A DNA stretch of 64,000 bases from Chitinophaga sp. MM2321 (GTDB lineage: Bacteria; Bacteroidota; Bacteroidia; Chitinophagales; Chitinophagaceae). Of this stretch, positions 9,829 through 45,344 are shown piece by piece. The stretch spans positions 2,790,001-2,854,000 of the forward strand of contig NZ_OZ035533.1 in the NCBI RefSeq assembly GCF_964033635.1, in the 5' to 3' direction. The position numbers and the translations under genes were made by a program. The notes beneath the pieces are model-generated. The model was not told where the DNA came from. It was given only the letters and a program-made list of their open reading frames with translations, and made no database searches. Within the stretch, counting starts at the first letter, position 1; every line of letters starts with the position of its first letter.

Positions 9829-9856
9829 CAGGATGATATTAGTGGATAGCAATAGA

Positions 9857-14001: not shown

Positions 14002-14006
14002 ATTTT

Positions 14007-14951
14007 TCAAATTTTTACATTCAACATCCTGTTTGCTTTTTCCCGGTAAGATGGAAAATCAGCAAACGCACCTGTTCCGCCGGCAGCGGTAGTGCTGATA
14101 GCACCTGCCAGGTTACCGGCCAAAAGATTATCGTATAGTGGTTTACCTTGCAGATGACTGTTGATAAATCCTGCGTTGAAGCTATCGCCAGCCCCGATGG
14201 CATCTACAAAGTGATCATGCAGATAAGGCGCGGCATGCAGGCTTTCTCCTTTATGATAGGCCGTTGCGCCGGAAATACCTCTTTTCACAATAATGGTATT
14301 GGCAAAAGCATCCAATACCTGGAAAGCACCATCTAATTGCTCTGTATGGGTTAATGCCAGAATCTCCGCTTCATTCGGCATAAAAAAATCGACGTAAGGC
14401 AAACATTCCTGGTAAGGAAAATGCCATTCATTCGCAGGGTCCCATTGTATATCAAGAGAAGTAGATAATCCTTTATCCCGGGCTGTTTTGAACAGCCGCA
14501 CTATATCTTTTTGCAATCCTTTTTGCAGAAAATAAGACGACAGATGCAGATGCGAAAAGTCAGGAAACCTGTCGAAAGGAATGTTATCCACCACCAGGTG
14601 TTCCATAGCCCCGCAATGCGTAACATTTGCACGATCCTGTAAGTAGTTTAATACCACTGTTACACCCGTCTGGTATTTTTCTGAAGAGCTGATCAAACTG
14701 GTATCCACCTGCTTCCTGTGCAGTTCAGACAAGATAAAATCACCAAAGAGATCTTTCCCAACCATACCGCAAAAGGAGGTGACTGTTCCCAATGAGGAAA
14801 GATTGGCGGCAAAAATGGCGGAAGAACTCCCCAGTGCCAACGTCATCTTATCTGCCAGGATCTCCTGCCCGATGACAGGAAATGAGCTGATCTCATTGAA
14901 CAGTATATCGACATTCAGTTCTCCGGTTACCAGTACCTTTTTATTGTTCAT
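14007..14951 (-). CDS. PfkB/ribokinase-family sugar kinase
   Basis: A 314-residue cytoplasmic kinase of the PfkB fold. The N-terminal substrate-binding signature is visible as GELNVDILFNEISSFP and GSSSAIFAANLSSLG, and the C-terminal ATP/anion-hole motif as DAIGAGDSFNAGF with the catalytic base D256. By context it could phosphorylate tagatose 6-phosphate before the aldolase step, or phosphorylate the incoming sugar itself; sequence alone does not decide. It starts with ATG at 14951, 58 bp after the SIS isomerase stop, and is followed 5 bp later by the aldolase, so the two are surely cotranscribed. Only one sugar kinase is seen in this locus, while the canonical route needs two phosphorylations. 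Confidence 0.92.
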   Translation of the reverse strand: MNNKKVLVTGELNVDILFNEISSFPVIGQEILADKMTLALGSSSAIFAANLSSLGTVTSFCGMVGKDLFGDFILSELHRKQVDTSLISSSEKYQTGVTVVLNYLQDRANVTHCGAMEHLVVDNIPFDRFPDFSHLHLSSYFLQKGLQKDIVRLFKTARDKGLSTSLDIQWDPANEWHFPYQECLPYVDFFMPNEAEILALTHTEQLDGAFQVLDAFANTIIVKRGISGATAYHKGESLHAAPYLHDHFVDAIGAGDSFNAGFINSHLQGKPLYDNLLAGNLAGAISTTAAGGTGAFADFPSYREKANRMLNVKI

Positions 14952-15009
14952 ATAATGCAGAAAATGCGTGTATTGAAATATAAACTGTTATTCATTTTAC
15001 AGGCCGCCC

Positions 15010-16176
15010 TCATGAAGGCACCAGGCCGGTATAGATCGTCACACCCTGTACCACGCGGCTGATAGACCCTGACACAGAAGGCGTATCAGGACGCAAGCCC
15101 AGGGATAGGGAGCGGTAAAACCCAAGCAGCTGCCCGATGAGCACTGTACCAATAAATGCAAGGTCATTGGGCGCATCCGCTGGTGTTGAAAATGTTATTT
15201 CCAGCACTGATTTCTTCAGATCGCTCAACTGTCTGTTGTAACTGAGTGTAGGAATTTTCCGGGTATCTGCTTCTATCGACAGGCACAGATCCCTTTCATA
15301 CTGGAATACATATTCATCTTTTGAAAACAGGTACACGATCAGTGAATCTTCATTGATCACCGCCCTGGGCCCATGTCTGAACCCCAGGAATGAATCGTGT
15401 TTACAAATAACTTTCCCATCTGTGAGTTCCTGTAATTTCAGGTGGCATTCCCTTGCAATACCCAACATTTCTCCTGAGCCTAAAAAGATAACTCTCCGGT
15501 AAGGTTTTTCCGCCACGGCTTTTATTTGCGGAAGATATTTTTCCAGCAATTCGTTGCCCTCTGTTATCAATACGTCCAGCGCGGGTTTAAGCGATGCTAT
15601 GATATCACTCTTTATAACCAGGATGGCCGCTAATAACATACCAGTAAAACTGCTTGTCATGGCCAGTCCCTTATCATTCGCACTTTCAGGCAGGATAAGG
15701 TGATAGGTATTGGGGAAGCGACTTTGCACCAGTGCACCTGCCTTATTACAAGTGATGATAAAATGAAAAACGGTATTGCAATATGTATTGGCCTGTTCAA
15801 CTACCGCCAGGCTCTCAGGACTATTTCCTGACCGGGCAAAAGAAAACAGCAACGTTGGTATCTCTTTTATAAAATGCAGGTGAGGATGCGTGATAATATC
15901 TGTGGTGGCAATGGCATGTGTCATTCTTTTTGTATTCGCCTGAACAATGCCGGCGATGGCTTCTCCTATAAAAGCGGAGGAGCCTGCACCCGTTAAAATG
16001 ATCCTTGCATCCGCATTTGAAAGTATGGGTGACAAAAAATCGCGGATAGCATCTTTTTGCGAAAGAATGAGATCATAGATCTCCTGCCATAACGCTGGTT
16101 GTCCTTCTATTTCCATAGCCGTATTCAAGCCGCCTTTTTCCTTAATTTCTCCTTGTTCAAAATGCAGATATGACAT
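15010..16176 (-). CDS. agaS: SIS-domain sugar-phosphate isomerase/deaminase (AgaS-like)
   Basis: This 388-residue protein has two SIS domains. The first is marked by ILTGAGSSAFIGEAIAG near residue 59 and FARSGNSPESLAVV; the second by FLGSGEMLGIARECHLK. The segment HDSFLGFRHGPRAVI around residue 266 is the feature that most resembles AgaS, which converts galactosamine 6-phosphate to tagatose 6-phosphate with release of ammonia. GlmS-type SIS proteins would carry an additional glutaminase domain, which is absent. It begins 7 bp after the permease stop. Combined with the kinase and aldolase downstream, it gives a short route from galactosamine phosphate to triose phosphates. The symbol is given by family resemblance only; other ketose/aldose isomerase activities are possible. 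Confidence 0.85.
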   Translation of the reverse strand: MSYLHFEQGEIKEKGGLNTAMEIEGQPALWQEIYDLILSQKDAIRDFLSPILSNADARIILTGAGSSAFIGEAIAGIVQANTKRMTHAIATTDIITHPHLHFIKEIPTLLFSFARSGNSPESLAVVEQANTYCNTVFHFIITCNKAGALVQSRFPNTYHLILPESANDKGLAMTSSFTGMLLAAILVIKSDIIASLKPALDVLITEGNELLEKYLPQIKAVAEKPYRRVIFLGSGEMLGIARECHLKLQELTDGKVICKHDSFLGFRHGPRAVINEDSLIVYLFSKDEYVFQYERDLCLSIEADTRKIPTLSYNRQLSDLKKSVLEITFSTPADAPNDLAFIGTVLIGQLLGFYRSLSLGLRPDTPSVSGSISRVVQGVTIYTGLVPS

Positions 16177-16183
16177 ATACTAA

Positions 16184-17125
16184 CTAGTTCTGGTTTACAT
16201 TATTTAATATATTAGCCGGCTCTTTCTCCACTGTACGTTTCTTCTCCATTTCCGATTCCGCTCTTCCCATCAACAACGCCGACAGCAGGGCCAATACAAT
16301 TCCGATGATGATATAGAGTTGTGGCATTGTCCAATAAATAAACAGGGAGATCACTATCGTCAGCACGGGCGACAAAGCCGTTGTCATCGGTGCCACTATA
16401 ATAGCTTTACCATAACGGAAAGCATAGACGAGACATAAAGCACCAAATGCATTCAGCACTTGTACGCCTGCTGCCAGCCAGGGGCCGCTCAGACCATAAT
16501 TCACCGGTTTTGAAAAGTCAGTCATCCATATAGCTACCGGAATGAGTGCTACGGAACTGAGCATCATGTAGAAAAAAATGCTCTCCGCCTTCATTTGTTC
16601 ATTGGCAAAGCGCATAACGAAACCCTGCGCCCCCCAGGCTATCATGGGAATAATAACGAGTATCAGCCAGGAGTAACCCGAAACAGCGGTATTACCCGAA
16701 GGCATATACGACAAAAGAAAGATGGCCAGTATTGCGATGCCTATACCTATCCAGCCGGTAGTACCTGTAGACTCTTTCAGGAATAATACCGCTAGTAAAA
16801 TGGTAACGATAGGTGTTAAGGATAGAATGGGAAAAACAATATATGCGGGTGCTATCCTTAAAGCAAAAAATAATACCAGTTGCCCTACTGCTCCTAATAA
16901 CCCCGCCAGACAACCGTATATAATAGCATTCCGGTCATAGTCCAGTTTCCACTTGTTAATATAAAGGGCCACAAGAGCTGCGGGTATCATGGTAAGCGCC
17001 CACACCACGTAACCAAGTGTAGCAGGGAAACCATTCTTCTCAGGCAGCTCGATGAGCGCACCCCATACCCCCATAAAAACTACGTGAATAATAACAAAGC
17101 TGATCCAGGTTCTTCCTTTTTGCAT
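16184..17125 (-). CDS. EamA/DMT-superfamily inner-membrane transporter
   Basis: A 313-residue integral membrane protein with about ten hydrophobic segments in two repeats of five, as in EamA/DMT transporters (for example WISFVIIHVVFMGVWGALI near the N-terminus, and FGALCLVYAFRYGKAIIVA and LYIIIGIVLALLSALLMG in the second half). The C-terminus is charged and cytosolic (EMEKKRTVEKEP). It starts 16 bp after the peptidase stop and ends 7 bp before the AgaS-like gene. Placement between them suggests that it brings the released sugar, or a small glycoconjugate, into the cytoplasm; the DMT superfamily includes both sugar and metabolite carriers. The substrate is not determined. Confidence 0.88.
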   Translation of the reverse strand: MQKGRTWISFVIIHVVFMGVWGALIELPEKNGFPATLGYVVWALTMIPAALVALYINKWKLDYDRNAIIYGCLAGLLGAVGQLVLFFALRIAPAYIVFPILSLTPIVTILLAVLFLKESTGTTGWIGIGIAILAIFLLSYMPSGNTAVSGYSWLILVIIPMIAWGAQGFVMRFANEQMKAESIFFYMMLSSVALIPVAIWMTDFSKPVNYGLSGPWLAAGVQVLNAFGALCLVYAFRYGKAIIVAPMTTALSPVLTIVISLFIYWTMPQLYIIIGIVLALLSALLMGRAESEMEKKRTVEKEPANILNNVNQN

Positions 17126-30057: not shown

Positions 30058-30837
30058 ATGGATTTGAAAAAAGTAACTTCCACCGTTGAACGCCGTATGT
30101 TGATCCTCGAAAAATTAGATGCTGAAGGACAACTCGATGTAACTTCTTTAAGTAAAGATCTAAGCGTAAGCGAGGTAACCATTCGCAATGACCTGAACTG
30201 GCTGGAGAATAAAAACATGCTGATCAGGGCCCGCGGTGGCGCCATAAAAGCAGAACGCGTAGGCGCTGAATTTTCCCTGTCTGAAAAAAATAAACTTCAT
30301 TACCAGGAAAAACTGCGGATCGGTAAAGCAGCGGCATCCCTCGTAGAAAACGGCGATACCATTATACTCGACTCCGGTACAACGACCCTTGAAATCAATA
30401 ACAACCTTTCCAATATTGAATCATTAACAGTAATCACCAACGCACTCAATATTGCTAACCGGTTAGTAGAACATGAACATGTGAATGTGATCGTTCCCGG
30501 CGGACTATTAAGAAAAAATTCGTTGTCGCTTGTTGGTGCTACTGCGGAAGAAAGCTTTAAAAACTATTTCTGCGATAAACTATTCCTTGCAGTGGACGGC
30601 TTCAGCACCTTACACGGCCTGTCTACCCCCAATGTAGAAGAAGCACATCTAAACAGGGTGATGATCTCTATTGCCAAACAGGTAATTGTAGTAACTGATT
30701 CCAGTAAGTTTTACAAAAGAAGCTTCGCTTTTATTGCGCCGATAACAGATATAGATATTGTCGTAACAGATCCAGGTATTCCGGAAGAAGATAAAAAACG
30801 GCTGGAAACAGCGGGGATTAAGGTGATCATTGTTTAG
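30058..30837 (+). CDS. DeoR-family transcriptional regulator
   Basis: A 259-residue repressor-type protein. Residues about 10-60 form the DeoR winged helix (ILEKLDAEGQLDVTSLSKDL, then SVSEVTIRNDLNWLE and RARGGAI). The rest is a DeoRC sensor domain with EKLRIGKAAASLVENGDTII, LDSGTTTLEI and KLFLAVDGFS; this domain binds phosphorylated sugars in known members such as AgaR, GlpR and FruR. It is transcribed away from the glycan operon across a shared control region, the classic arrangement for a local regulator. I infer that a phosphorylated intermediate of the kinase/AgaS/aldolase branch is the inducer. The gene ends just before a strong bidirectional terminator. Confidence 0.94.
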   Translation: MDLKKVTSTVERRMLILEKLDAEGQLDVTSLSKDLSVSEVTIRNDLNWLENKNMLIRARGGAIKAERVGAEFSLSEKNKLHYQEKLRIGKAAASLVENGDTIILDSGTTTLEINNNLSNIESLTVITNALNIANRLVEHEHVNVIVPGGLLRKNSLSLVGATAEESFKNYFCDKLFLAVDGFSTLHGLSTPNVEEAHLNRVMISIAKQVIVVTDSSKFYKRSFAFIAPITDIDIVVTDPGIPEEDKKRLETAGIKVIIV

Positions 30838-30931: not shown

Positions 30932-32644
30932 TTACAGATTTCCTTTCTTCAATTCACTGACTGCATAATCAGCCGCTCTTGCCGTGAGCGCCATATACGT
31001 AAGAGAAGGATTTTGGGTAGATGTAGAGGTCATGCAGGCGCCATCTGTTACAAATACGTTGCGGCATGTATGCAACTGGTTCCATTCATTGAGCAAGGAA
31101 GTAGCCGGATCTTTTCCCATCCTTACACCGCCCATCTCATGAATATCAAGCCCCGGCGCCATTTCAGACTTCTCTGTCTTTATATTTTTAAAGCCTGCTG
31201 CTGTAAACATTTCTGAGAGCTGCTCGAAATAATCATTCCGCATCTTTTCATCATTATCATCATAGTCTACAGCCACTTTCAGTAATGGAATTCCCCAGGC
31301 ATCTTTCTGTGTTGCATCCAGCGTTACCTTGTTGCTTTCTTTCGGGATGGTTTCGCCCATCATATGAGAACCGACGCGCCAGGGGCCCAGCGTGGATTTC
31401 AGCAGATTCCCTTTCAGGTTTCCGCCTACACCACTCGTATCCTGGGAGGAACTTCTGTAGCCTCCCAAACCGGCAGCATAGCCACGAAGAAAGCCTGTTT
31501 CCTGTTTGAAAACATTCCTAAAACGTGGTATGTATCCGGAAGAAGGTGATCGTCCATCCGTTGTAAATTCTTTCAGCCCATCGTACTCAGCGTTGATACG
31601 CGCACTATAATTGTGAAAAGCCAGGTACTTCCCCATCAGACCATTGTCGTTGCCCAATCCTGTTGGGAAACGGGAAGAGGTGGAATTCAACAATAGCAGG
31701 TTTGTATTCATCGTGCTAGCATTCACAAAAATAACCTTTGCATAAAAGTCAATTTCTTCCTTTGTTTGTGAATCAATTACTTTAACGCCTTTCGCTTTAC
31801 CTAATTGTTCGTCATATATCACTGAATGCACCACGGAAAATGGCCGTAAGGTCATATTCCCTGTTCGTTGCGCCCAGGGCAGTGTGGAAGAATTACTACT
31901 GAAGTAGCCACCAAATGGGCATCCCCGCTGACAAAGGGTGCGGTTCTGACATTTGGCGCGCCCCTGCTCAAAATGAATCGGCTCGGGTTTCGACAAATGC
32001 GCACAGCGTGAACTGATCACATGCCGGTCAGTATATTTTTTCTTTAATGACTTACTAAAATAATCTTCCACCGCGTTCAACGGGTAAGCAGGCAGAAACT
32101 CCCCATCAGGCAAAGACGCAAGCCCGTCTTTATTCCCGGAGATACCGGCAAATTTTTCTACATGACTATACCAGGGAGCCAGGTCTTTATAGCGAATAGG
32201 CCAGTCAACCGCAAAACCATCGCGGGCAGGCCCTTCAAAATCATACTCGCTCCAACGCTGGGTTTGGCGGGCCCACATTAGTGATTTTCCTCCAACCTGG
32301 TAACCTCTTATCCAGTCGAACGGTTTCTCCTGGATATAAGGATGTTCTGCATCCTTCACAAAGAAATGGAGCGCATCTTCCCGGAAAGCATAACACCTGC
32401 TCACAATAGGATTTGCTTCTTTTATTTCTGTCGTCAGTTCACCCCGGTGTTCAAATTCATAGGGGAATTTATTGGTCGTGGGGTAATCAATATTATGTTT
32501 CACATCACGTCCCCGTTCTAATACAAGCGTCTTCAGTCCTTTCTCCGAAAACTCTTTCGCGGCCCAGCCTCCGCTGATACCTGAACCGATCACGATTACA
32601 TCGTAAGTCCGTTCCTTTTCACTTTTAATATTCAAGTTGGCCAT
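30932..32644 (-). CDS. GMC-family FAD dehydrogenase, large subunit (glucoside 3-dehydrogenase-like)
   Basis: A 570-residue GMC oxidoreductase. The FAD dinucleotide-binding motif VIVIGSGISGGWAAKEF is at about residues 16-32; the C-terminal catalytic pair is the His in DIHEMGGVRMG near 503 and the Asn in STQNPSLTYMAL near 545. C232, C238 and C242 (CQNRTLCQRGCPFGG) have the C-x5-C-x3-C spacing known for the 3Fe-4S cluster in the catalytic subunit of bacterial FAD glucose dehydrogenase, which points to an electron-donating dehydrogenase rather than an oxidase. It has no signal peptide; its partner 9 bp upstream has a twin-arginine signal, so the two could be exported together. The substrate is probably a glucoside; the C3 position is an inference from related enzymes. 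Confidence 0.93.
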   Translation of the reverse strand: MANLNIKSEKERTYDVIVIGSGISGGWAAKEFSEKGLKTLVLERGRDVKHNIDYPTTNKFPYEFEHRGELTTEIKEANPIVSRCYAFREDALHFFVKDAEHPYIQEKPFDWIRGYQVGGKSLMWARQTQRWSEYDFEGPARDGFAVDWPIRYKDLAPWYSHVEKFAGISGNKDGLASLPDGEFLPAYPLNAVEDYFSKSLKKKYTDRHVISSRCAHLSKPEPIHFEQGRAKCQNRTLCQRGCPFGGYFSSNSSTLPWAQRTGNMTLRPFSVVHSVIYDEQLGKAKGVKVIDSQTKEEIDFYAKVIFVNASTMNTNLLLLNSTSSRFPTGLGNDNGLMGKYLAFHNYSARINAEYDGLKEFTTDGRSPSSGYIPRFRNVFKQETGFLRGYAAGLGGYRSSSQDTSGVGGNLKGNLLKSTLGPWRVGSHMMGETIPKESNKVTLDATQKDAWGIPLLKVAVDYDDNDEKMRNDYFEQLSEMFTAAGFKNIKTEKSEMAPGLDIHEMGGVRMGKDPATSLLNEWNQLHTCRNVFVTDGACMTSTSTQNPSLTYMALTARAADYAVSELKKGNL

Positions 32645-32653
32645 ATGCGTTTT

Positions 32654-33184
32654 TTATGATGCTTTTACAGGAAAATAACCGTCATAACGGCCAGGTACTA
32701 ATTCATAAACATCCAGGTGGGTCATTACATATTTGGAATTCAAATAGCCCTGGATGGTGCGGTCCTTCATTATCCGGTAAAAAACACCCATTTCTGCAGC
32801 TGCCTGCTGATCCTTTTCTATACCTACCAGCAAGGCTTCCCGGTTTTCACGGGTACTGTTTGTAAAAGAAGTTCCGTATTGTTTTTCAGCGGCTGCCGAC
32901 AACTGTTCCAGTCCCTTCATAAAAGCCTGCTGATCTTTGGTTTCATGGCAGTCATCTACCATCTTCAATACAAAAAGATGGAGGCCCAATTCCCTGGCGC
33001 CGGGTGTATTCGTAGCCGGAAGAATTGTTTCTGCAATTGCCTCCAGTAAAGTTTCCTGCTCCCTGCTGACAACAAGGTGCTTCAAACCGCCGGAAGATTT
33101 GCCCTTCCCGCCAAAACAGGAAGGCAAAATTGCAATGCCTCCCGAAATAATTAACAGGTTTCTGATAGCTGTACGCCTTTGCAT
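32654..33184 (-). CDS. Gluconate 2-dehydrogenase subunit 3 family protein with Tat-like signal
   Basis: From the ATG at 33184 the product is 176 residues. It begins MQRRTAIRNLLIISGGIA followed by ILPSCFGG, which combines a twin-arginine motif (RRTAIR) with a possible lipobox Cys. The rest is helical and fits the gluconate 2-dehydrogenase subunit 3 family (LLEAIAETILPATNTPGARE; FMKGLEQLSAAAEKQYG; GYLNSKYVMTHLDVYELVPG). In FAD sugar dehydrogenases this small gamma subunit acts as a maturation and export partner for the GMC subunit. The GMC gene starts 9 bp downstream. A TTG two codons upstream of the ATG is possible but less likely. A cytochrome c subunit is not found next to them. Confidence 0.9.
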   Translation of the reverse strand: MQRRTAIRNLLIISGGIAILPSCFGGKGKSSGGLKHLVVSREQETLLEAIAETILPATNTPGARELGLHLFVLKMVDDCHETKDQQAFMKGLEQLSAAAEKQYGTSFTNSTRENREALLVGIEKDQQAAAEMGVFYRIMKDRTIQGYLNSKYVMTHLDVYELVPGRYDGYFPVKAS

Positions 33185-33265
33185 ATTCAATTCATTTTCT
33201 TGTATAAAACCGGCGAAACAGGTACGGGTATATTATCCCGTAACCTGTTCGTCGTATCATTTCCG

Positions 33266-34114
33266 TTATTTTATTTTTTCCATCACCTGGTTGTAATATC
33301 CGAGGCTTTGGCCAATTTCCGTCAGGTTATTGCGGGGGTTCGTTTCATATTCAACCGCCAGGATACCTGTAAACTTTTGCTGGTGTAATTCTTTCAACAT
33401 ACCATCTATATTGCAGATGCCCGTTCCCCATATAGTGTCCACTCCTCCTGTGGCAGGCGTTGTAATATCTTTGAAATGCACTTCAAAGATGCGGCCTTCC
33501 AGTTTCTTCAAACATTCAATGGGGTCCATTCCGGAGCGGGTCCAGTGTCCTACATCTGCACAGGCGCCGATATATTTGCTGCTGTTTTCCAAAGCGGCCA
33601 GCAAGGTATCAGGATGCGCGTAATGCGAAGGGCTTGGATGATTATGGATAGCTACCTGTATCTGGTATTCTTCGCAGAGCCGGGAAACCAGTTCCAGATC
33701 ATCAGGATGAGGTTCCGATACAATATTCCGGAGGTCCATGGCTTTTGCGAATGCAAACAACTCCCGCCATCCTTCCGGAGAATCCGGTGTGTATACGCCA
33801 AAGTCGATGAGTTTTACATCCTGCTTTGCAAGATAGTCCAGTACCAGTTTCCGCTTTTCTTCACTCATCCCGGCCTCCATTTTACCTTCTATGCCACCAC
33901 CGATAGGCTGTCCCGGGAAAGCACCCAGGAAGTGGATACCCGCTTCTTTCGCCTTGTCTACTGTTTCAAAAAAGGTAAACTCCCGGAATGACCATGCAAT
34001 AACAGCCAGGTCCCAGGGCGCGCTACCCGCCTTCTTTTGCTCCGGCTGATTACAAGCCGTGTAACCTACTGCAAACAGAATGGCCAGCAGCAATATCGAT
34101 AATTTCTTCATCAT
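33266..34114 (-). CDS. Lipoprotein TIM-barrel sugar isomerase/epimerase-like protein
   Basis: The ATG at 34114 (or 34111) begins a lipoprotein signal with lipobox VGYTAC, giving 282 residues. The remainder is a xylose-isomerase-like/AP-endonuclease-2 barrel: WDLAVIAWSFREFTFFETVD, SEPHPDDLELVSRLCEEYQ (Glu ligand region), AIHNHPSPSHYAHPDT, GACADVGHWTRSG, IFEVHFKDI and ILAVEYET. These Glu, His, Asp and Glu residues fit a divalent metal site. Members exported as lipoproteins beside sugar oxidoreductases include enzymes that eliminate the aglycone from 3-keto-glycosides; that is my preferred role, by analogy. It lies 42 bp after the GH16 gene and 81 bp before the subunit 3 gene. Confidence 0.88.
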   Translation of the reverse strand: MMKKLSILLLAILFAVGYTACNQPEQKKAGSAPWDLAVIAWSFREFTFFETVDKAKEAGIHFLGAFPGQPIGGGIEGKMEAGMSEEKRKLVLDYLAKQDVKLIDFGVYTPDSPEGWRELFAFAKAMDLRNIVSEPHPDDLELVSRLCEEYQIQVAIHNHPSPSHYAHPDTLLAALENSSKYIGACADVGHWTRSGMDPIECLKKLEGRIFEVHFKDITTPATGGVDTIWGTGICNIDGMLKELHQQKFTGILAVEYETNPRNNLTEIGQSLGYYNQVMEKIK

Positions 34115-34156
34115 GCTATTTATTTTTCGTTCTGAAATTTCATTACTCAATATAGG

Positions 34157-35023
34157 TTATTGAAACACTCTTACATAATCCAATATATAAGATTGTGGAA
34201 AGATGGCATCATCGATCTTCCCACCCCATGCACCACCCAGCGCCAGGTTCAGGAGCAGGAAATGCGGTTTCCGGAAAGCGTTCTCTTTACCCACACCAGC
34301 ATTATCAAGTGGAAAAGTATGAAAGCGGTGTTCATCATAATAAAAATCAATCCGGTCATCTTTCCATTCAATGGCATAAATATGAAAACCATCTGTAGGA
34401 GACACCTCACTTTTTGTACCCATCATGGAAGTATGTTTCTTTTTCTGTGGATCTTCATAATGTGCATTCCCGTGAACACGTGCAGAATCGTGTCCTACAA
34501 ATTCCATGATATCGATCTCGCCGCAACGCGGCCATCCGATTACGGGTTCATTATCACCAAGCGTCCAGATGGCGGGCCATACACCCATGCCACGGGGAAG
34601 TTTTGCCCGTACTTCTATTCTGCCGTATGTCCATGATGCTTTTCCCTGCGTAACAATGCAGGCAGACGTATAGGAGGCGCTATCCGGGTGAAACTGCCAC
34701 TCGTTACTTCCCGGCTGGTGAAAGGCATTGGCGAACTTTTCTTTTCTGCCTTCTATGATGAGATGCCCACCGGCAACCCGGGCATTCTCGGTGCGGGCGG
34801 TCGTGTAATACTGCTCCTCGTTATTCCTGACAAAGCCTTCCTGGTAACTCCATTTTGTACTATCCGGCAATCCGTCTCTATCAAATTCATCTGACCATAC
34901 CAATGTTTTAAATTCGCCCGAACCGCCGCCGGAGGCCTGCACTTTCGCAGGCTGGCTACACGAAGAAGCCAGCAGCCCTGCTGTAATGGTTGCCAGGCAA
35001 AGGCCGTTTAATTTCTTTATCAT
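34157..35023 (-). CDS. GH16-family endo-glucanase/laminarinase-like lipoprotein
   Basis: A 288-residue lipoprotein (signal ending LLASSCSQP) consisting of one GH16 jelly-roll. The catalytic motif GEIDIMEFVGHD places the nucleophile at E169, the helper Asp at D171 and the acid/base at E174. The extra Met between D and E is the beta-bulge form found in laminarinase-type GH16 rather than in kappa-carrageenases. Other conserved segments are LVWSDEFDRDGLPD at the N-terminus and FHIYAIEWKDDRIDFYYD. GH16 enzymes of this type cut beta-1,3- or mixed beta-glucans and some galactans. I start at 35023; an ATG at 35041 touches the previous gene's stop codon. Confidence 0.94.
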   Translation of the reverse strand: MIKKLNGLCLATITAGLLASSCSQPAKVQASGGGSGEFKTLVWSDEFDRDGLPDSTKWSYQEGFVRNNEEQYYTTARTENARVAGGHLIIEGRKEKFANAFHQPGSNEWQFHPDSASYTSACIVTQGKASWTYGRIEVRAKLPRGMGVWPAIWTLGDNEPVIGWPRCGEIDIMEFVGHDSARVHGNAHYEDPQKKKHTSMMGTKSEVSPTDGFHIYAIEWKDDRIDFYYDEHRFHTFPLDNAGVGKENAFRKPHFLLLNLALGGAWGGKIDDAIFPQSYILDYVRVFQ

Positions 35024-35040
35024 AAAACCTGTTTTAATCA

Positions 35041-36612
35041 TTACTCAACAATAAGTTCCTTGTCGTACTCAAGTGCCGGGATGTAGCCGGGTAACGCCGT
35101 ATTATCCTGTCTCAAAAGCACTTTGTATTTACCAGGTTCCAGGTTGGCCAGCACCCTTTGATTACCGAATGTGTAAGGTAGCCATTTTCCATTACCTGTA
35201 TGCTGGATATACCAGGTATAAACACTGGTATAATCAGGATTGATCACATCGAGCGTATATTGATGCCCGTTAGTATCCTTTGTGATGGTAAAATACGATT
35301 GTGTATTCACTTTCCAAATTTCATCAGCGATTGTTTGCATTACTTCCGGATAACCTATCAGCAAATATTCCGTTACAGGATAACCCCACCAGGTGAGCGG
35401 CTGTACTGCGGGCATTTTAAAATAACCTCTCTTCACCAGCTTGTTTTTGATGGCGGCAGTTACATGCTTCAGCCAATAAGCCTGACAGGTGGGCGTAAGG
35501 CTATAGTACCAGATGGTTTCATTGACACCCCACGGCGCCCAGGCGCCATCGCCCATTCCCATGATGCCGGGATGTTTGCCCCGGAAACCTATGCCATACC
35601 AGTCCAGGTTAAAGAGTACCGGGACACTCTCTATCGTATCGCCCTGCGGACTGATACCGCCCGACTTGTTCAGTATTCCGGGGAGATACTTACTTAAATT
35701 GAGTTCCGCCATTGGCTGCCCTTCGCAGGGCGAATGCCGGTAGCTGTTGCTGGTAGGGTCCGGGCGCACAGGCGTGGTCAGAAAGTCCAGCAAAAGCCGA
35801 TTGCTGCCATTCACGTACAGCGCCCGGTCTATATCTGCGTTAATGATAGCAAAAGTACCTTTCGATTTCGCATACGCCCTGATCTTCTGAAACAGGTCAT
35901 GCGTTTTTACATAAGCCGTATCATGATTGGTAATCATTTCAAACCAACCCATATGCATAGAATTACAACCCATGTCGATAAAAATAGTGCACATGTAGTA
36001 AAACCACATGCGGGTTTGGATACGATTAATGTCCGGCGGCCAGCATTGTGGCAACCATTCAGGAAATGATGCATTGCGCATCGCTTCCGCATTAAAGTAC
36101 AACGGGCGTTTCGGGCTGTACTTCAGGCCGGCCATATCGGGGTCTGACCGGAAAACATCCAGTACATGATCCGGCACGCGTATCTTGTTTACATCGGTGG
36201 TTATTGCTTCATAAATACCTGCTTCTATAACAGGTAATGGTGTATCATCATTTGAATAAACGAGATGAATATCGCGGATGAACTGCCGGGTTATGCTGAA
36301 TAGTTTGCCTCCCGGCAACAGGTCTGTTTCCGGCATTCCCCATGAACCTGCCACCCTGCTCAGGTAGGATGGTTTAAGGCGCCTGAACATATTGATCTGC
36401 TCACAATATCCGGGCTTGCCTAAACGATTAGTAATGCCTGCTACCATCATAGACCGGGCGAGATAGCGGTCTATCAATGCGTAGTCGTGTTCTCCATCCG
36501 CTGTGATAGCCGGCTGCACAACGGGTAGTTTCATGGCAGCCGGTATACAATCCTGTGCATTCGCCGTATAAAAAAAACAAATCAGCAAAAGTGGCGATAA
36601 TAATCTTAGCAT
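35041..36612 (-). CDS. Secreted protein of unknown family, paralogue 1 (long form)
   Basis: A 523-residue exported protein (signal peptide ending FFYTANAQ). I do not recognise the family. It is clearly homologous to the next-door 423-residue protein over most of that length: DTPLPVIEAGIYEAITTDV here matches NTPLPIIQACIFEVVSTEV there, MWFYYMCTIFIDMGCNSMH matches MWFYFMATEFIQCGVESLH, and LLLDFLTTPVRP matches LLFDFHSSPIRP. This copy has about 100 extra C-terminal residues that look like a beta-sandwich (ITKDTNGHQYTLDVI; LEPGKYKVLLRQD). The common part reads as an alternating beta/alpha barrel with conserved acidic residues. It lies 9 bp after its paralogue and 17 bp before GH16. Confidence 0.85.
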   Translation of the reverse strand: MLRLLSPLLLICFFYTANAQDCIPAAMKLPVVQPAITADGEHDYALIDRYLARSMMVAGITNRLGKPGYCEQINMFRRLKPSYLSRVAGSWGMPETDLLPGGKLFSITRQFIRDIHLVYSNDDTPLPVIEAGIYEAITTDVNKIRVPDHVLDVFRSDPDMAGLKYSPKRPLYFNAEAMRNASFPEWLPQCWPPDINRIQTRMWFYYMCTIFIDMGCNSMHMGWFEMITNHDTAYVKTHDLFQKIRAYAKSKGTFAIINADIDRALYVNGSNRLLLDFLTTPVRPDPTSNSYRHSPCEGQPMAELNLSKYLPGILNKSGGISPQGDTIESVPVLFNLDWYGIGFRGKHPGIMGMGDGAWAPWGVNETIWYYSLTPTCQAYWLKHVTAAIKNKLVKRGYFKMPAVQPLTWWGYPVTEYLLIGYPEVMQTIADEIWKVNTQSYFTITKDTNGHQYTLDVINPDYTSVYTWYIQHTGNGKWLPYTFGNQRVLANLEPGKYKVLLRQDNTALPGYIPALEYDKELIVE

Positions 36613-37930: not shown

Positions 37931-39622
37931 TTAATTATAGCCCGCATTCTGCACCAATGCTGTGTTCCTGTTCATTTCCGATTGCGGAATAGGAAACAGG
38001 TCAAAAGCAGGGCGATAAACACGGCTCTCCAGCTGGAATTTTTCGTACGAGAGAGAAGCATCATTCTTCTTAGTGATCCGCATCCCGTAAATGGTTTTAA
38101 ATACACTTTCCCCGATACCCCATCTTCTCACATCCCAAAAGCGGAAATTTTCAAAGGCCAGTTCAATTCTTCTTTCATGCCGGATACGCGCACGCATCTG
38201 ATCTTTGGAGAGTCCTGCGGGCAGGTCGGGCATGCCTATGCCTACACGGCCACGAATATCGTTGATGGCTTTATACACTGTTTGATCCGGTGCGGCAAGT
38301 ACTTCATTCTGTGCTTCTGCATAGTTCAGCAACGCCTCTCCATAACGCATAAATATCCAGTAATTACTACCTACATGGCCGGGCCATGGCTGCATATCAC
38401 CGTTGGGGTCCAGCATTTTGTTGCCGAGATAATACCCTGTTTGTGTATAAGAATATTTCTGAGGACCGCCATCTGGTCCGTTATAAATACCGTCTATGCC
38501 ACCAACAAAAGTTTCTATACGTGGTTCATCATTCCGTTCTTTCCATATGCTGCCGTTATGGTAAATGGTAAGTCCCAACCTTGGGTCACGATCCTTGTAA
38601 GGATCAAGGCTGTTATACCCCGAAGCAGGGTCGGTGATTGGCAGCCCGTTTTTCATTTCATATGCTTCTACCAGGTTATGGGAAGGCTGATTGTTAGCCC
38701 AGCCCCATTCACGCTGAATCGTGTTCTGTTGCTGCCAGTCGTTCCAGCCGCCGCCATTTGAATTAAAGTTCACGGTGGACTGGAAAATTACCTCATTGGA
38801 AAAGCGGGTATGAAAGAGATTTACATAATTATTATTCAGTGAATAAAGGCCCAGGTCTATCACTGCTTTGGCAGCATCTGCTGCCTTCGTCCATCTGCCT
38901 ACTTCATTACCTTTGTTATGAAGCGGGCTTGCGAGGTAAAGTAATGCGCGGGATTTGAGCATTAAAGCAGCTCCTTTGGTAGCTCTGCCCAAATCGGAAG
39001 AGGTATAAGTTGGCGGAAGGATGTCAGCAGCGAGATTACAGTTTTCCTCAATAAAAGCAACCACTTCTTCAGCAGTATTCCGGGGAACGTTGAAGTCGTC
39101 TGTTACTTCCATTACATAATCGATCACCGGAACGCCACCATAGCGTTTAAACAATTCAAAGTAGCAATAGGCACGGATAAAGTAGGCTTCCCCTTTCATC
39201 CTTTTCAGTTCATCACCCTGCTTGGTAGTTTCCGAAGGCACATTATCAATATTGCGCAGAAAGATGTGTGTTTTCCTGATCAGCGCATATAGTGCTCCCC
39301 ACCTGTCCAGCGGATTGGAGGTAGATGAAAGCGAACCGTTTCTGAATATAACGCTCGCATCGTTCTGCGGATAGGGGCAATAAGCTTCATCGGTTACATT
39401 ACCATAACTGAAACCGTATAGCGGCATCCATTCGTCGTGAAAGAGCCCTTGATAAATGCCCGCCAGAAAGCCATTTGTATTGAGATAAGTAGAGAAAGCA
39501 ACCGATTCTGACATACCACCACTCTCCGCTTTATCAAGGAAAGAACCCTCCTTCCTGCAACCACCAAAAGCGACCAGTATTGCGATGACCAGCACTGATA
39601 ATTTTATATGTTTAATCTTCAT
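37931..39622 (-). CDS. susD: SusD/RagB-family glycan-binding lipoprotein (locus B)
   Basis: A 563-residue SusD-like lipoprotein with the signal LVIAILVAFGGCRKEG (Cys about residue 22) and the mature N-terminus SFLDKAESGGMSESVAFS. Characteristic helical segments are EAYFIRAYCYFELFKRYGGV and YGEALLNYAEAQNEVL, with RHERRIELAFENFRFWDVRRW near the C-terminus (read in parts). It is the surface lid for the preceding SusC channel, whose stop lies 27 bp upstream. Its partner carries an STN domain, so this pair responds through the sigma/FecR relay rather than through the DeoR-family protein. Confidence 0.95.
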   Translation of the reverse strand: MKIKHIKLSVLVIAILVAFGGCRKEGSFLDKAESGGMSESVAFSTYLNTNGFLAGIYQGLFHDEWMPLYGFSYGNVTDEAYCPYPQNDASVIFRNGSLSSTSNPLDRWGALYALIRKTHIFLRNIDNVPSETTKQGDELKRMKGEAYFIRAYCYFELFKRYGGVPVIDYVMEVTDDFNVPRNTAEEVVAFIEENCNLAADILPPTYTSSDLGRATKGAALMLKSRALLYLASPLHNKGNEVGRWTKAADAAKAVIDLGLYSLNNNYVNLFHTRFSNEVIFQSTVNFNSNGGGWNDWQQQNTIQREWGWANNQPSHNLVEAYEMKNGLPITDPASGYNSLDPYKDRDPRLGLTIYHNGSIWKERNDEPRIETFVGGIDGIYNGPDGGPQKYSYTQTGYYLGNKMLDPNGDMQPWPGHVGSNYWIFMRYGEALLNYAEAQNEVLAAPDQTVYKAINDIRGRVGIGMPDLPAGLSKDQMRARIRHERRIELAFENFRFWDVRRWGIGESVFKTIYGMRITKKNDASLSYEKFQLESRVYRPAFDLFPIPQSEMNRNTALVQNAGYN

Positions 39623-39649: not shown

Positions 39650-42600
39650 TTAGAATCCAACAGATGCACCAATATTGATGACCCTTTGTTGCGGATAGAT
39701 GGCGCCCTCACCACTCGGTGCTTCCGGATCAAAGTCACCCCCTATTTTATCCCAGGTATAGAGGTTCATGCCGTTAGCATAGATCCGGAGGGAAGAAATT
39801 CCTCTCCCGTTTTTCAACCACAGTTGTCTGAAGGTGTAGCCGATCTCCATATTCTTCAAACGCATATAGCTGGCATCTTTCAGGAAAAAAGTAGAAGCGT
39901 TGTGGTTGTTGGCATTTGTACCGGAGTGTATAGCAGGATAAGACGCTGTTGCAGCGGTTTCAGGTGTCCAGCGATTGAGGTGCGACTCCAGCACTTTACC
40001 GCCATTCTGAAACTCCCAGGCACCGCGGGCGGAGAACATTACATTGAAATTTCCGGCGCCTTGCAAAAGAAAGCTGAAGTCCAGGTTCTTCCAGTTAACA
40101 CCACCGGAAATACCATAGAACACTTCGGGTACATCACTTCTTCCGATAGGTCCCTGATCGTTCTGATCTATTACACCATCGTTGTTTCTATCCAGGTACC
40201 GGATGTCTCCCGGTATAACCGTACCGAATTGCGGGGGGGCCGCAGCAATTTCCGCTTTGTCGTTAAAAAAGCCCAGGGCGGTGAGGCCATATATCTGGCC
40301 AATGGGATGGCCCGTGCGGTATAAATAATCATAAGCGCGGTTCTCTTCATCCATAAACAGGATTTTGTTGCGCGCATAAGTGAGGTTACCATTAACGAAG
40401 TAAGTGAGATCTTTCTTAACTGTGCGCTGGTGTCTTAACTCCAATTCAAATCCCTTATTTTCTGTTCTGCCCATATTGGCAGGTGGCAGGTTGCCAGTGG
40501 GTACGCCCACCATAGCGGGGATAGTGCCCCTTGTTACCAACATGTCTGATCTTTTCTCCTTAAAAACATCCAATGTCATACCCAGCAAATCACCGAGCAG
40601 CCGTACTTCCAGGCCCAGGTTTGTTTTCTTTGAAGTTTCCCAGGTCACCAGTGAATTAGGCATAGGTCCTTCCTGCACACCGTCTGTATTCGAAGCGGGG
40701 TCACCGAAGTTGTAACCACCACCGGGATTAAATTCACCGATGAATAACCAGCGCCGTCCGGGTAACTGATCATTACCTACTGATCCGTAAGAAGCCCGCA
40801 GCTTCAGAAAATCAACCACGCTGCTGCCCTTCATGAAAGACTCTTCTGATAATACCCACGCAGCGGAATAAGAAGGGAAGAATCCATAACGGTTTCCTTT
40901 AGAGAAATTATCCGTACCATTCAGACCGGCATTAAATTCTGCAAAATATTTATTGCGGAAACCATAGGCAAGTCTGCCTACCAGGCCCTGTGAAACAAAA
41001 GGGATTTGCCCGCTGATCACTCTTTGCTGGCGGTTTGCCAGCAGGAAGCCGGTCACATTGTGCTCTCCTTTTTTTCCGTATAGTCTTTCATAGTTCAGTG
41101 AAAAGTCGAGCCAAGTATCGCGACTCTGATCTGTAGTAGACCATGGTGGTCCCAGTGGTGCGTCTTTGGTATTCTGGTAACGGTAGCTCAGTGGGTCCAT
41201 CAGATCACCGCCTTCATAGAAAGCAAAATATCCGGTCCTGCCTCTTTCTACGTTATTCCTGAAATAGCCGTCGAAGGAAAAATTGCCTTTTACGGAAAGC
41301 CCTTTCGTTATAAAATCCATTTTCCGGGTAGCTGAAATCTTACCTGAAAGTGAAGAGTTAAAGGCTTCCTTGTAACCGGCCTGCTGTACATCCCCGATTG
41401 GGTTACCGCCGCCATAAGTAGAAGAATAGCCATATACACCGGTAGGATATTTAATCGGTGTAGCCAATGGCGGTACCCACATGAGTGCACTGAATAGTTC
41501 GCCGGTAGACCTTCTGGGCCCGTTCTTGTTTTCGATAGCACCAAACAGGTTCATACTGAGAGAGAAGTCCTTATCAAATTCAATATCAATATTGGAACGG
41601 AAGTTATATCGCTTGTATTTGATATTTGGATCATAGTTCGGCATTTTTTCAAGCCTGAACAAACCATCCTGGTCGGTATAGCCTACGTTCACAAAATACT
41701 TTACGAGTGTAGTACCGCCGCTGATATCAAAGTTTGCCTGTGTAAGGTTTGAGCTTTTCATCATTTCCTTTACCCAGTCTACATCAGGATACCGGTAAGG
41801 ATCAGCATGTGTGCGGTATGCTTCCAGCGCCTCCTCAGAGAAAGGAAGCGAAGAGCCGCCCGGGTTATCATTCAGATAGGCCTCGTTGCGAAGTGTGGCG
41901 AAACCGTAGGAATCAGCAAACTTAGGCAACCGTATCGCTGTTTGAACTGCGCGTTGCACTCTTGCGTTCATTCTTGGCTTTCCTAATTTGCCGCGTCTTG
42001 TGGTAATAATGATAACGCCGTTAGCGCCTTTTACGCCATATAACGCAGTAGCAGATGCATCTTTTAAAATGGAGATTGTTTCAATTTCGTTGGCATCCAG
42101 CAGGGAGATAGCATTATATTCTTTCTGGATCCCATCTATGGTTACCAATGGCGCCGTACTATTGAGGGTAGCTCTTCCTCTTAGAAAGAGCGTAGAAGCA
42201 TCTGCACCCGGTTCGCCGGAACGTTGAATAGAGATGAGGCCCGGCATCCTTCCTGCCAGCGCATTTGTAATATTGGCAACAGGGCTCTGCATCAGTTCTT
42301 TGGTGCTAAGCGAAGCAATAGCGCCTGTTTGCGCAATCTTCTTTTGTGTTTGTCCAAAGCCCAACACGACCACTTCATTAAGCCCGGTATTATTTTCTTT
42401 CAGGATAATCTCTATGCCGCTTCTACCGCCAACGGATATACGCTGACTGGTAAACCCTACATAGCTGAATACGAGGAAGGCATCCTGTTTCACACCATCC
42501 AGTGCAAAATGGCCGTTTTCATTGGTAACGGTTCCTTTGCTCGTACCTTCCACACCAACGGATACGCCAATGAGCGGTTTGCCTGTGCTGTCCTTCACGG

Positions 42601-43015
42601 TGCCGCTAATACGAATATCCTGCACCACTTCCGCAGGCGCCACTTCTCCGGGTGTTATGATCACGGTTTTATCAATGATCCTATAGGAAAGCGGTAAGCC
42701 TTTCATACAGGCATCCATCACCTGCTTGATGGTAGCCGCTTCCAGGTTTACGGAAACACGGGCGCCGGCTTTGTTGATATTCTCGTTATTATAAAGAAAT
42801 AAATAATCACCTTGCTGCTTGACCGATGCAAATACCTTTTCCAAAGGTACCTGGTCGAATGATAGTGTAAAATACTTTTCCTGTGAGTAAGCCGCTGCCG
42901 ATAATTGCAGGCAGCCGACAAGTAAGAAGATAGCAGACAATTTCATAACACACATAATTTTGGTGAAGAATAATTGCCAACCATACCTGATTTGATTAGG
43001 TAACGATTGTTTCAT
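39650..43015 (-). CDS. susC: SusC-type TonB-dependent transducer with STN domain (locus B)
   Basis: A 1121-residue outer-membrane receptor. Following the signal peptide (MKLSAIFLLVGCLQLSAAA) residues about 45-120 form an STN secretin/TonB short N-terminal domain (YFTLSFDQVPLEKVFASVKQ; TIKQVMDACMKGLPLSYRI), the part that contacts FecR in the periplasm. A carboxypeptidase-regulatory domain (ISGTVKDSTGKPLIGVSVGV), the plug (LYGVKGANGVIIITTRRGK) and the barrel ending IGASVGF follow. It therefore doubles as transporter and surface sensor for the upstream ECF sigma factor. The gene begins 170 bp after FecR, enough room for its own sigma-dependent promoter. The ATG at 43015 was kept because the long N-terminus is usual in this genus group. 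Confidence 0.96.
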   Translation of the reverse strand: MKQSLPNQIRYGWQLFFTKIMCVMKLSAIFLLVGCLQLSAAAYSQEKYFTLSFDQVPLEKVFASVKQQGDYLFLYNNENINKAGARVSVNLEAATIKQVMDACMKGLPLSYRIIDKTVIITPGEVAPAEVVQDIRISGTVKDSTGKPLIGVSVGVEGTSKGTVTNENGHFALDGVKQDAFLVFSYVGFTSQRISVGGRSGIEIILKENNTGLNEVVVLGFGQTQKKIAQTGAIASLSTKELMQSPVANITNALAGRMPGLISIQRSGEPGADASTLFLRGRATLNSTAPLVTIDGIQKEYNAISLLDANEIETISILKDASATALYGVKGANGVIIITTRRGKLGKPRMNARVQRAVQTAIRLPKFADSYGFATLRNEAYLNDNPGGSSLPFSEEALEAYRTHADPYRYPDVDWVKEMMKSSNLTQANFDISGGTTLVKYFVNVGYTDQDGLFRLEKMPNYDPNIKYKRYNFRSNIDIEFDKDFSLSMNLFGAIENKNGPRRSTGELFSALMWVPPLATPIKYPTGVYGYSSTYGGGNPIGDVQQAGYKEAFNSSLSGKISATRKMDFITKGLSVKGNFSFDGYFRNNVERGRTGYFAFYEGGDLMDPLSYRYQNTKDAPLGPPWSTTDQSRDTWLDFSLNYERLYGKKGEHNVTGFLLANRQQRVISGQIPFVSQGLVGRLAYGFRNKYFAEFNAGLNGTDNFSKGNRYGFFPSYSAAWVLSEESFMKGSSVVDFLKLRASYGSVGNDQLPGRRWLFIGEFNPGGGYNFGDPASNTDGVQEGPMPNSLVTWETSKKTNLGLEVRLLGDLLGMTLDVFKEKRSDMLVTRGTIPAMVGVPTGNLPPANMGRTENKGFELELRHQRTVKKDLTYFVNGNLTYARNKILFMDEENRAYDYLYRTGHPIGQIYGLTALGFFNDKAEIAAAPPQFGTVIPGDIRYLDRNNDGVIDQNDQGPIGRSDVPEVFYGISGGVNWKNLDFSFLLQGAGNFNVMFSARGAWEFQNGGKVLESHLNRWTPETAATASYPAIHSGTNANNHNASTFFLKDASYMRLKNMEIGYTFRQLWLKNGRGISSLRIYANGMNLYTWDKIGGDFDPEAPSGEGAIYPQQRVINIGASVGF

Positions 43016-43185: not shown

Positions 43186-44409
43186 TTATGGAGAAGTAAC
43201 GATAATTCGTCTTCCTTCTATCTCGAAATGGGCGCCGCCGGTAAGTTCCAGCATTTCCAGCACCTTTGATATATTTTCCATCCTTCGCATCCCACCCGTA
43301 AAATGACTTTTCGGTTTTGTTTTCAACTTATATTCTACCGTTATATCATACCAACGTTCCAGCTGCTTCATGATATCTTCCAGGTTGTCGTTATTAAACA
43401 GGAACAGATTGTTTTTCCAGGCAACGGCCCCGTCTACATCCACTCTGGCTATGTCCATCAGCTGCTGCTGTTTGTTAAATACTGCATGAAAACCCGGCCG
43501 GAGGTTATAGGTTGGAGAGCTTGATCCATATTTTAACTGCACCTGGCCTTCCAGCAAAGTAGTGACAATTTCCTTTTCGTTATTATAGGCCATCACATTA
43601 AAATGAGTGCCCAGCACCTCTATCCTCACATCTTCCGCTGTTTCTACAATAAAGCGTTGGTGCACATTACGCGCTACTTCGAAATAGGCTTCCCCTTTCA
43701 GAAAAACAGTCCGTTCACTTCCTGTAAAATGGGTAGGGTACCTGATGGATGACATGGCGTTGAGCCATATACGTGTGCCGTCTGACAACACCACGGAATA
43801 TGTTCCGCCTACCGGTGTGGTGAGCGTATTAAATACCACTTCTCCCGGCTGGGAAAATCCTTTTTCATATACCAGTCTGGCCGAATCATTTTGCAGCCGG
43901 GCGCCATCTCTTTCACCCAGACTGGCCAGGGAATCACCGTCCAGTATTACTTTTTCCCCGTTGCTCAGTATCAGTACTGCCTTGTTACCGCCAGGCTCCA
44001 CATCATTATGATAACGCAAGGCTGTAGGCGTGTATTCGTAATCGTTATCTTGTTTCTCTTTATTAAAAAACAGCATCCCCGAAGCAATAACCAGTGGCAA
44101 GAGAATAGCCGCTGCATATTTCCACCAGCGTGCTTTCCGGATATCGCGGATATTTGTTTCCTGCCCTGTTTTCCTTTCCTGGAAAGCATTCCAGCCCTTT
44201 GCTATATCAATCGCATCCAGCTCATCCAGGTGCTGTTTCATTACATGCTCATCTGTCAGTTGCCTGAAAAGCGCAGCATTGGCTTCATCTTCACCGAGCC
44301 AGGCATTCAATTTCACTTGCTCCTCTTCATCAAGGCCAGTACGGATATATTTCTCAATAATCCCGCTTATCCCTAGAAGGGATTGCATATTATATGGATC
44401 GTTATTCAT
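43186..44409 (-). CDS. FecR-family anti-sigma factor
   Basis: A 407-residue inner-membrane regulator. The cytoplasmic N-terminal part (EKYIRTGLDEEEQVKLNAWL; ANAALFRQLTDEHVMKQHL) binds the sigma factor; one membrane helix (KYAAAILLPLVIASGMLFF) is near residue 90. The periplasmic FecR domain follows (TPVGGTYSVVLSDGTRIWLN; SIRYPTHFTGSERTVFLKGE; VLGTHFNVMAYNNEKE), with a DUF4974-like C-terminal secretin-fold domain (DNLEDIMKQLERWYDITVEY). It should relay a signal from the STN domain of the downstream SusC to the sigma factor encoded 127 bp upstream. The ATG at 44409 is preferred over a TTG eight codons upstream. Confidence 0.95.
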   Translation of the reverse strand: MNNDPYNMQSLLGISGIIEKYIRTGLDEEEQVKLNAWLGEDEANAALFRQLTDEHVMKQHLDELDAIDIAKGWNAFQERKTGQETNIRDIRKARWWKYAAAILLPLVIASGMLFFNKEKQDNDYEYTPTALRYHNDVEPGGNKAVLILSNGEKVILDGDSLASLGERDGARLQNDSARLVYEKGFSQPGEVVFNTLTTPVGGTYSVVLSDGTRIWLNAMSSIRYPTHFTGSERTVFLKGEAYFEVARNVHQRFIVETAEDVRIEVLGTHFNVMAYNNEKEIVTTLLEGQVQLKYGSSSPTYNLRPGFHAVFNKQQQLMDIARVDVDGAVAWKNNLFLFNNDNLEDIMKQLERWYDITVEYKLKTKPKSHFTGGMRRMENISKVLEMLELTGGAHFEIEGRRIIVTSP

Positions 44410-44536
44410 ATCCGGTTCTTGGCATGTTGGCAAAATCGCCTGCTTCTATACTAAAACAACTCAACAGGAAAAAGGTACTAAGTGTACCAGATGTTTTTTA
44501 TCGAAAACATCAAAATACCTCCCCGAAGACAGGTAA

Positions 44537-45073
44537 TTATAATCCAAGCAATAAAAAAAGTGGTAGTAAACGCTCGTTCAAAATACCCCGTAACAGCTTG
44601 TAGCCACGGCTTTTCTGATTCTTAACCGTTTGGAGGGATAACTGCAGTGTATCAGCGATCTCCTGGTTCGACAATTCATCCAGGTAACTCAGCTTGATAA
44701 TTTTCCTGCACTCCGGGGGAAGCTGGCCAATAGCATAATGCAGTTCACCGGTAACTTCCGCTGTAATGATAGCCTGTGTAACATCCGGCTCTGTATATGC
44801 TTTTCTGTGCAATTGCTCAGTCGCATATTTTTGCTGCACCTGGGAATGTTTGAGGTGATTGAGGCAGTCATTGCGCACCATTGTATATAAAAAGGCTTTT
44901 GCTACATTCAGTTCCTGAAATTCCCTGCCTGTTTTCCATATCTTGAAAAAGGCCTCCTGTACCAGGTCTTCCGCGATGGTCATATCACCCGTCATTTTGC
45001 CTGCAAAGAAGCACAGACGGGAATAAAGCAGCTCAAACAGGTAGCTGGTAGCACCCTCTTTGTTATCTGCCAT
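44537..45073 (-). CDS. RNA polymerase ECF sigma-70 factor
   Basis: An extracytoplasmic-function sigma factor of 178 residues from the ATG at 45073 (a TTG at 45109 would add 12 residues). Region 2 is seen in MTIAEDLVQEAFFKIWKTGR and AFLYTMVRNDCLNHLKH; region 4 in LPPECRKIIKLSYLDELS and NQEIADTLQLSLQTVKNQKS. It lacks extra domains. With FecR directly downstream and an STN-type SusC after that, it forms a cell-surface signalling cascade that would turn on locus B when its glycan binds the receptor. The final LLPLFLLLGL is a hydrophobic tail, common in this group in Bacteroidota. Confidence 0.94.
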   Translation of the reverse strand: MADNKEGATSYLFELLYSRLCFFAGKMTGDMTIAEDLVQEAFFKIWKTGREFQELNVAKAFLYTMVRNDCLNHLKHSQVQQKYATEQLHRKAYTEPDVTQAIITAEVTGELHYAIGQLPPECRKIIKLSYLDELSNQEIADTLQLSLQTVKNQKSRGYKLLRGILNERLLPLFLLLGL

Positions 45074-45344
45074 ATGACGTACGAAAGTATATTCCGGAGA
45101 ATTTTCCAAATATCAGCAATTTGTTGGGAGTTAGCGATAATTCATAACGTGGTATAGTCTCTTGGTTGTCCCTGGGGGTTAAAAATATAAAGAATAACGA
45201 CATTTTTACAACTTCCGGTAATTCTTTTTTAGTGCATTGTTCATTGCGCAACACTGCTGTTGCCCTGCTTACTGGTAAAGTATATAATGTGGGATGCTAA
45301 CGGAAGGGATACTATCTGAATACTTTTTTTAATGCTACACTAGC

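Follow-up and report, generated by a model that had tools for sequence, protein, structure and literature searches.

Glycosides can be degraded by oxidation, elimination, hydration and reduction, and this principle, together with a dehydrogenase/eliminase operon, is already set out for Agrobacterium (PMC10628242), so that operons of the GMC/twin-arginine/eliminase kind are published. According to that report, the Agrobacterium tumefaciens glycoside operon encodes GlycDH, AtOGE, a probable hydratase (AtHYD) and a Gfo oxidoreductase; AtOGE has the metal ligands H132, D163, H189 and, weakly, E233, with His134 as catalytic residue, and the GlycDH of Rhizobium was employed together with a twin-arginine signal protein. 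BT2158 of Bacteroides thetaiotaomicron is a periplasmic glycoside 3-dehydrogenase (PMC11300592), a 3-keto-O-glycoside lyase is known from the same species (PMC13273386), and a heme c protein is the electron acceptor of an FAD glucoside 3-dehydrogenase (PMC9915066). The window analysed here is a stretch of 64,000 nucleotides from Chitinophaga sp. MM2321 (NZ_OZ035533.1, positions 2,790,001 to 2,854,000), whose genome is a single contig of 6.78 Mb. Three minus-strand genes in it encode a GMC-family dehydrogenase, a subunit 3-like partner and a TIM-barrel lipoprotein (the barrel). We lean slightly towards seeing in this trio a periplasmic unit for oxidation and elimination with which a polysaccharide-utilisation operon ends. 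The oxidation-elimination mechanism put forward in a preliminary description of this DNA is the best reading by homology and appears partly supported, and the chemistry itself is already known and not new in kind.

Proteins of the trio

The three genes are present as open reading frames (ORFs) 30932-32644 (570 aa), 32654-33190 and 33266-34150. Sensible ATG starts lie at 33184 for the subunit 3 gene and at 34114 for the barrel gene, the latter also being the end coordinate of the preliminary description. The barrel has the isomerase/lyase type of fold ascribed to it there, with a PF01261 match, and its N-terminus, MMKKLSILLLAILFAVGYTAC, reads by eye as a lipoprotein signal. Its AlphaFold2 model has a pLDDT of 92.7. 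Besides three Parabacteroides structures, the sole solved protein found by a single-sequence search with the barrel is AtOGE (8BVK), through one 72-residue stretch (E 7e-4).

AtOGE H132, catalytic H134, D163 and H189 are all matched in the alignment with the barrel, so that the three metal ligands are aligned, and E255 is identical to the AtOGE-type rows; this rests on alignment and not on a metal-bound structure. Residues 157, 159, 187, 213 and 255 are identical in 83 of 83 barrel-family rows and in all four AtOGE-type rows. One of the two patterns with which loci were fetched includes position 187, and constancy there is in part a product of the selection; positions 157, 159, 213 and 255 lie outside these patterns. 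The kept metal-site residues and catalytic His agree, by homology, with the earlier view of a metal-dependent barrel of the eliminase kind. In the tree, the AtOGE types form a branch of their own.

The GMC protein has seven cysteines, and C232, C238 and C242 form its sole C-x5-C-x3-C motif, bearing out the FeS-type pattern noticed earlier. The motif aligns with its counterpart in the large subunit of fructose dehydrogenase, whose structure is solved. It occurs in all 15 GMC proteins compared (10 of the source genome, two from Pontibacter and three proteobacterial), with a matching N-P motif in 14 and H-x-M-G near the C-terminus in 13. Going by the glucose dehydrogenase literature, this cysteine set presumably binds a [3Fe-4S] cluster. 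The best PDB relatives are fructose and glucose (FAD) dehydrogenase large subunits (best E 1.8e-32), so oxidation at positions other than C3 is possible. Identity is 46% and 48% to the GMC proteins of two comparison loci, L214 and L215, where they lie beside AtOGE-type and hydratase-type genes; by homology, the GMC and small-subunit pair thus resembles those of oxidation-elimination loci, as had been proposed.

The partner, with its PF13618 match, also fits its first description as a twin-arginine protein, since its N-terminus (MQRRTAIRN...LPSC) reads by eye as a twin-arginine signal with a lipobox. A signal peptide of its own was not seen by eye in the GMC protein, which would have to be carried out of the cytosol by subunit 3. 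The proposal that all three proteins are directed to the periplasm therefore holds, by eye, for subunit 3 and the barrel, and the GMC protein has no signal to match. The window does show the gene arrangement expected of a glucoside 3-dehydrogenase, a GMC protein with C-x5-C-x3-C next to a subunit 3 with an export signal (by eye). GMC adjoins subunit 3 in 28 of 30 subunit-3 loci (window included), the other two being ended by contig ends. The source genome has seven PF13618 and ten GMC matches, so the pair alone is not special. The endo-glucanase reported next door is indeed a GH16 protein adjoining the barrel, with laminarinase 3iln as its best solved relative (E 3.9e-56).

Recurrence of the barrel and its neighbours

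Eighty loci of relatives were fetched, and the barrel ORF was obtained from 77; neighbours were labelled by local seed searches and not by Pfam on every gene, the ROK label at L058 being weak (31.7 bits). Within six genes of the barrel lie Gfo/Idh (36 loci), DUF1080 (20), SusC (13), GSDH (12), ROK (6), GMC (4), SIS (4), subunit 3 (3) and a second GSDH type (1). Within two genes on the same strand there are GSDH (10), Gfo/Idh (6) and GMC (4). Some oxidoreductase of the four seed types (GMC, Gfo/Idh and the two GSDH types) is thus found within six genes in 50/77 loci, and within two genes on the same strand in 20/77. Overall, this apparently uncharacterised branch of barrels lies near three unrelated dehydrogenase types in relatives, namely GMC, Gfo/Idh and a sorbosone-dehydrogenase-cytochrome type.

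GMC and barrel also occur together in the source genome at 1.30 Mb, in two Pontibacter, in a Cytophagales metagenome-assembled genome (MAG), in a Dyadobacter MAG (subunit 3 unseen, at a contig end) and in a same-genus genome, G585. These GMC-linked barrels fall in separate tree branches, one with the window, G585 and the Dyadobacter MAG, another with the second copy of the source genome and the Cytophagales MAG, and a third with Pontibacter. The order in G585 is SusC, SusD, GH39, GH5, barrel, ROK, GH78, subunit 3 (55%) and GMC (74%); in the second copy it is SusC, SusD, subunit 3, GMC (81%), barrel (42%), ROK and SIS. The proximity of PF01261 and subunit-3 genes in the source genome is beyond chance: 3 of the 30 PF01261 genes used lie within 4 kb of one of the seven subunit-3 genes, which 37 of 20,000 random placements match.

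Genes for a ROK kinase and a GmhA-like SIS isomerase recur beside the barrel family (L027 11011-12531, L036 1657-3206, L037 3573-5134, L042 3461-5157 and L068 10871-12411, the last a compact three-gene unit). They possibly provide a phosphorylating route for the keto product. At L074 (10859-13546) and nine more Pedobacter loci a GSDH protein is encoded directly downstream of the barrel. The L074 protein, the one in which domains were read, combines sorbosone dehydrogenase, PKD, cytochrome c and CBM6 domains, and this fusion may serve the same lyase as an alternative sugar oxidase in the periplasm.

Proposed pathway and alternatives

In the proposed pathway, GH16 would cut a beta-glucan, probably of laminarin type, and SusC/SusD would import the pieces. 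The GMC/subunit 3 pair, presumably exported jointly by the twin-arginine route, would oxidise the glucosyl C3-OH and pass electrons to a cytochrome or quinone. In the barrel, H157, D187, H213 and E255 would bind a divalent metal and H159 would act as acid/base; the barrel would take the C2 proton and expel the C1-linked group, yielding 2-hydroxy-3-keto-glucal and a shortened chain. In a beta-1,3-glucan the 3-OH is free at the non-reducing end alone, so the unit would nibble from there. Hydration and reduction would take place elsewhere; the genome has two close relatives of the 2-hydroxy-3-keto-glucal hydratase, 8RO4-type genes located elsewhere (E 3.5e-164 and 3.6e-159 against the L214 protein). 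Sequence gives the gene order, domains, signals read by eye and conserved active-site residues, and the substrate and every reaction step are what we infer. The Pfam scan covered 27 window proteins, out of 60 ORFs of at least 120 aa; among these 27 there was no hydratase or Gfo/Idh reductase, as a four-step locus would have, and no cytochrome c family, the genome not having been searched for the latter.

Several observations weigh against an eliminase working with this dehydrogenase. None of the four oxidoreductase types is nearby in 27/77 barrel loci, and the barrel's own six-row clade includes three members with ROK and SIS and no such oxidoreductase. The GMC partnership is recurrent but not obligate or general (4/77, 1/23 and 1/30). 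The barrel is near subunit 3 in 1/30 subunit-3 loci, that one being the window itself, which together with GMC within six genes in 4/77 barrel loci weakens the idea of the trio as a fixed unit. The 120 best subunit-3 relatives do not include the two contigs that apparently carry the nearest relatives of the barrel and of the 423-aa protein (see the table). The same trio in Pontibacter L046 has a GH3 gene immediately upstream, so oxidation does not have to take the place of hydrolysis, and the earlier wording that oligosaccharides are degraded in this way "instead of hydrolysis" is weakened. Overall profile scores also fail to single out AtOGE as the match of the barrel: the barrel profile finds AtOGE at E 1.1e-5 but gives higher scores to IolE and to an epimerase-like protein.

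The position of IolE (3cny, 33.4 bits) above AtOGE in this search would suit an IolE-like keto-sugar or keto-inositol dehydratase, in which case the dehydrogenase would oxidise a free sugar or polyol, the barrel would eliminate water and another pathway would be fed. The IolE row likewise has H-x-H at the H-N-H place in the profile alignment, and the barrel has an NCBIfam IolE match of 44.8 bits, far under the cut-off of 290. This function is unlikely, however, in a polysaccharide-utilisation setting with GH16 and SusC/SusD and with a lipoprotein signal (by eye), and no inositol-pathway family was noticed among the scanned proteins. An ordinary sugar isomerase/epimerase, with GMC and subunit 3 as an independent sugar dehydrogenase merely sharing the operon, is quite unlikely as well, since the AtOGE catalytic His and metal set is kept in all barrel-family rows, whereas the epimerase-like 3wqo has E-N-M where the barrel has H-N-H. 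Oxidoreductase neighbours of three kinds recur, and a lipoprotein (again by eye) would miss cytosolic sugar phosphates.

The barrel might also be a hydratase of 2-hydroxy-3-keto-glucal, or a lyase and hydratase in one, and not the primary eliminase. The Agrobacterium operon has two such barrels, one an eliminase and one a probable hydratase (PMC10628242), and according to PMC13273386 the elimination product is hydrated by the same or another lyase. Against this, the barrel-family profile scores AtOGE-type proteins at 32, 30 and 19 bits and hydratase-type proteins at 11.5 and 11 bits, with two further hydratase-type proteins and the third locus barrel unlisted. All four hydratase-type proteins read lack H-x-H; the type was identified through L214 against 8RO4 (E 1.9e-169), and the remaining three were assigned to it from their annotation and similar N-termini. 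8RO4 itself is outside the ten PDB sequences found with the barrel profile at E <= 0.01. Judged by sequence, the barrel fits the AtOGE-type lyases better than the hydratase type, and a hydratase role seems quite unlikely.

A wider generalisation of the eliminase reading, which must be called doubtful, would make the 3P6L-type lipoprotein barrels an eliminase used generally in the periplasm of Bacteroidota and combined with unrelated dehydrogenases (GMC with subunit 3, Gfo/Idh, or the sorbosone-dehydrogenase/PKD/cytochrome c/CBM6 fusion). Here it would serve GH16-linked, exo-acting, non-hydrolytic shortening of beta-1,3-glucan, and in the barrel's own clade ROK and GmhA-like SIS proteins would replace hydratase and reductase. 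As far as seen, what is new is an apparently uncharacterised lyase branch as likely eliminase, the GH16 SusC/SusD setting and the varied dehydrogenase neighbours. If the eliminase reading is true, a large family whose members mostly bear the label sugar phosphate isomerase/epimerase would consist of glycoside lyases; one search gave up to 1498 proteins at E <= 1e-3, not all in the barrel's branch. Gene clusters of environmental Bacteroidota that are now taken as purely hydrolytic would then contain oxidative steps as well, and 3P6L, a solved structure, would acquire a function open to testing.

Gene neighbourhood and comparison with known systems

The trio ends an operon-like run on the minus strand, in the order ECF sigma/FecR, SusC, SusD, two paralogues, GH16, barrel, subunit 3 and GMC.

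Features of the operon-like run and its surroundings, with positions in the window
Feature	Positions	Strand	Evidence
DeoR-family regulator, convergent with operon end	30058..30837	+	PF00455, PF08220
GMC-family FAD dehydrogenase, 570 aa	30932..32644	-	PF05199 69.9 bits, PF00732 29.3 bits
C232-x5-C238-x3-C242, iron-sulphur type motif of GMC protein	31919..31951	-	
Gluconate 2-dehydrogenase subunit 3-like partner	32654..33184	-	PF13618, 109 bits
TIM-barrel lipoprotein, predicted metal-dependent 3-keto-glycoside eliminase, 282 aa	33266..34114	-	PF01261, 59.8 bits
H157-N-H159 of barrel, predicted metal ligand and catalytic His (AtOGE H132, H134)	33638..33646	-	
GH16, laminarinase-like endo-glucanase, lipoprotein-type N-terminus by eye	34157..35041	-	PF00722
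Unnamed protein, 28% identity to neighbouring 423-aa protein	35041..36612	-	no Pfam family
Unnamed glycosidase-like TIM barrel (predicted), 423 aa	36622..37893	-	no Pfam family
SusD-like protein, named by eye from sequence	37931..39622	-	ORF; 26% identity to second SusD-like protein of the window
SusC-like TonB-dependent receptor, named by eye from sequence	39650..43015	-	ORF
FecR anti-sigma and ECF sigma factor genes, upstream of SusC	43186..45109	-	Pfam

The 423-aa protein has 1187 relatives at E <= 1e-3, among them a few named from Hydrogenedentes and Verrucomicrobiae. Elsewhere in the window, genes for a class II aldolase, PfkB kinase, SIS protein and EamA transporter lie in a row at 13180-17125, and with the GH20 and GH42-like genes at 3303-9852 they make up a separate locus of amino-sugar or tagatose type. 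About 10-20 kb before the window start lies a glycoside oxidation locus of the classical type (L034, at about 2770000-2780300 of the source genome), with genes for an AtOGE-like barrel, subunit 3, GMC, MFS, two PF06439 proteins and Gfo/Idh, and an alpha-amylase gene on the other strand. With 21 PF06439 (3-keto-disaccharide hydrolase) matches and the two 8RO4-type hydratase relatives, the source genome is rich in likely non-hydrolytic glycoside enzymes.

Among described proteins, the Parabacteroides distasonis BDI_1903 structure (PDB 3P6L) is entitled a sugar phosphate isomerase/epimerase, unlike the eliminase reading. The BT2158 system of B. thetaiotaomicron, presumably a Gfo/Idh-type dehydrogenase with a different lyase protein, is unlike the window in its components. 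It is like the proposed pathway in the periplasmic 3-oxidation of glycosides in Bacteroidota. The proteobacterial plasmid loci L214-L216 (Palleronia, Xanthomonas sacchari and Paracoccus) share GMC and subunit 3 with the window, in one cluster with an AtOGE-type barrel. They differ from it by having DUF1080 and one more barrel, to which L214 and L215 add Gfo/Idh and a barrel of the hydratase type, and L215 a cytochrome c gene. The Agrobacterium operon resembles the window in placing a broad-specificity glycoside dehydrogenase beside a TIM-barrel eliminase with the same metal and catalytic residues, but the window barrel belongs to a distant branch and lies in a SusC/SusD locus with GH16.
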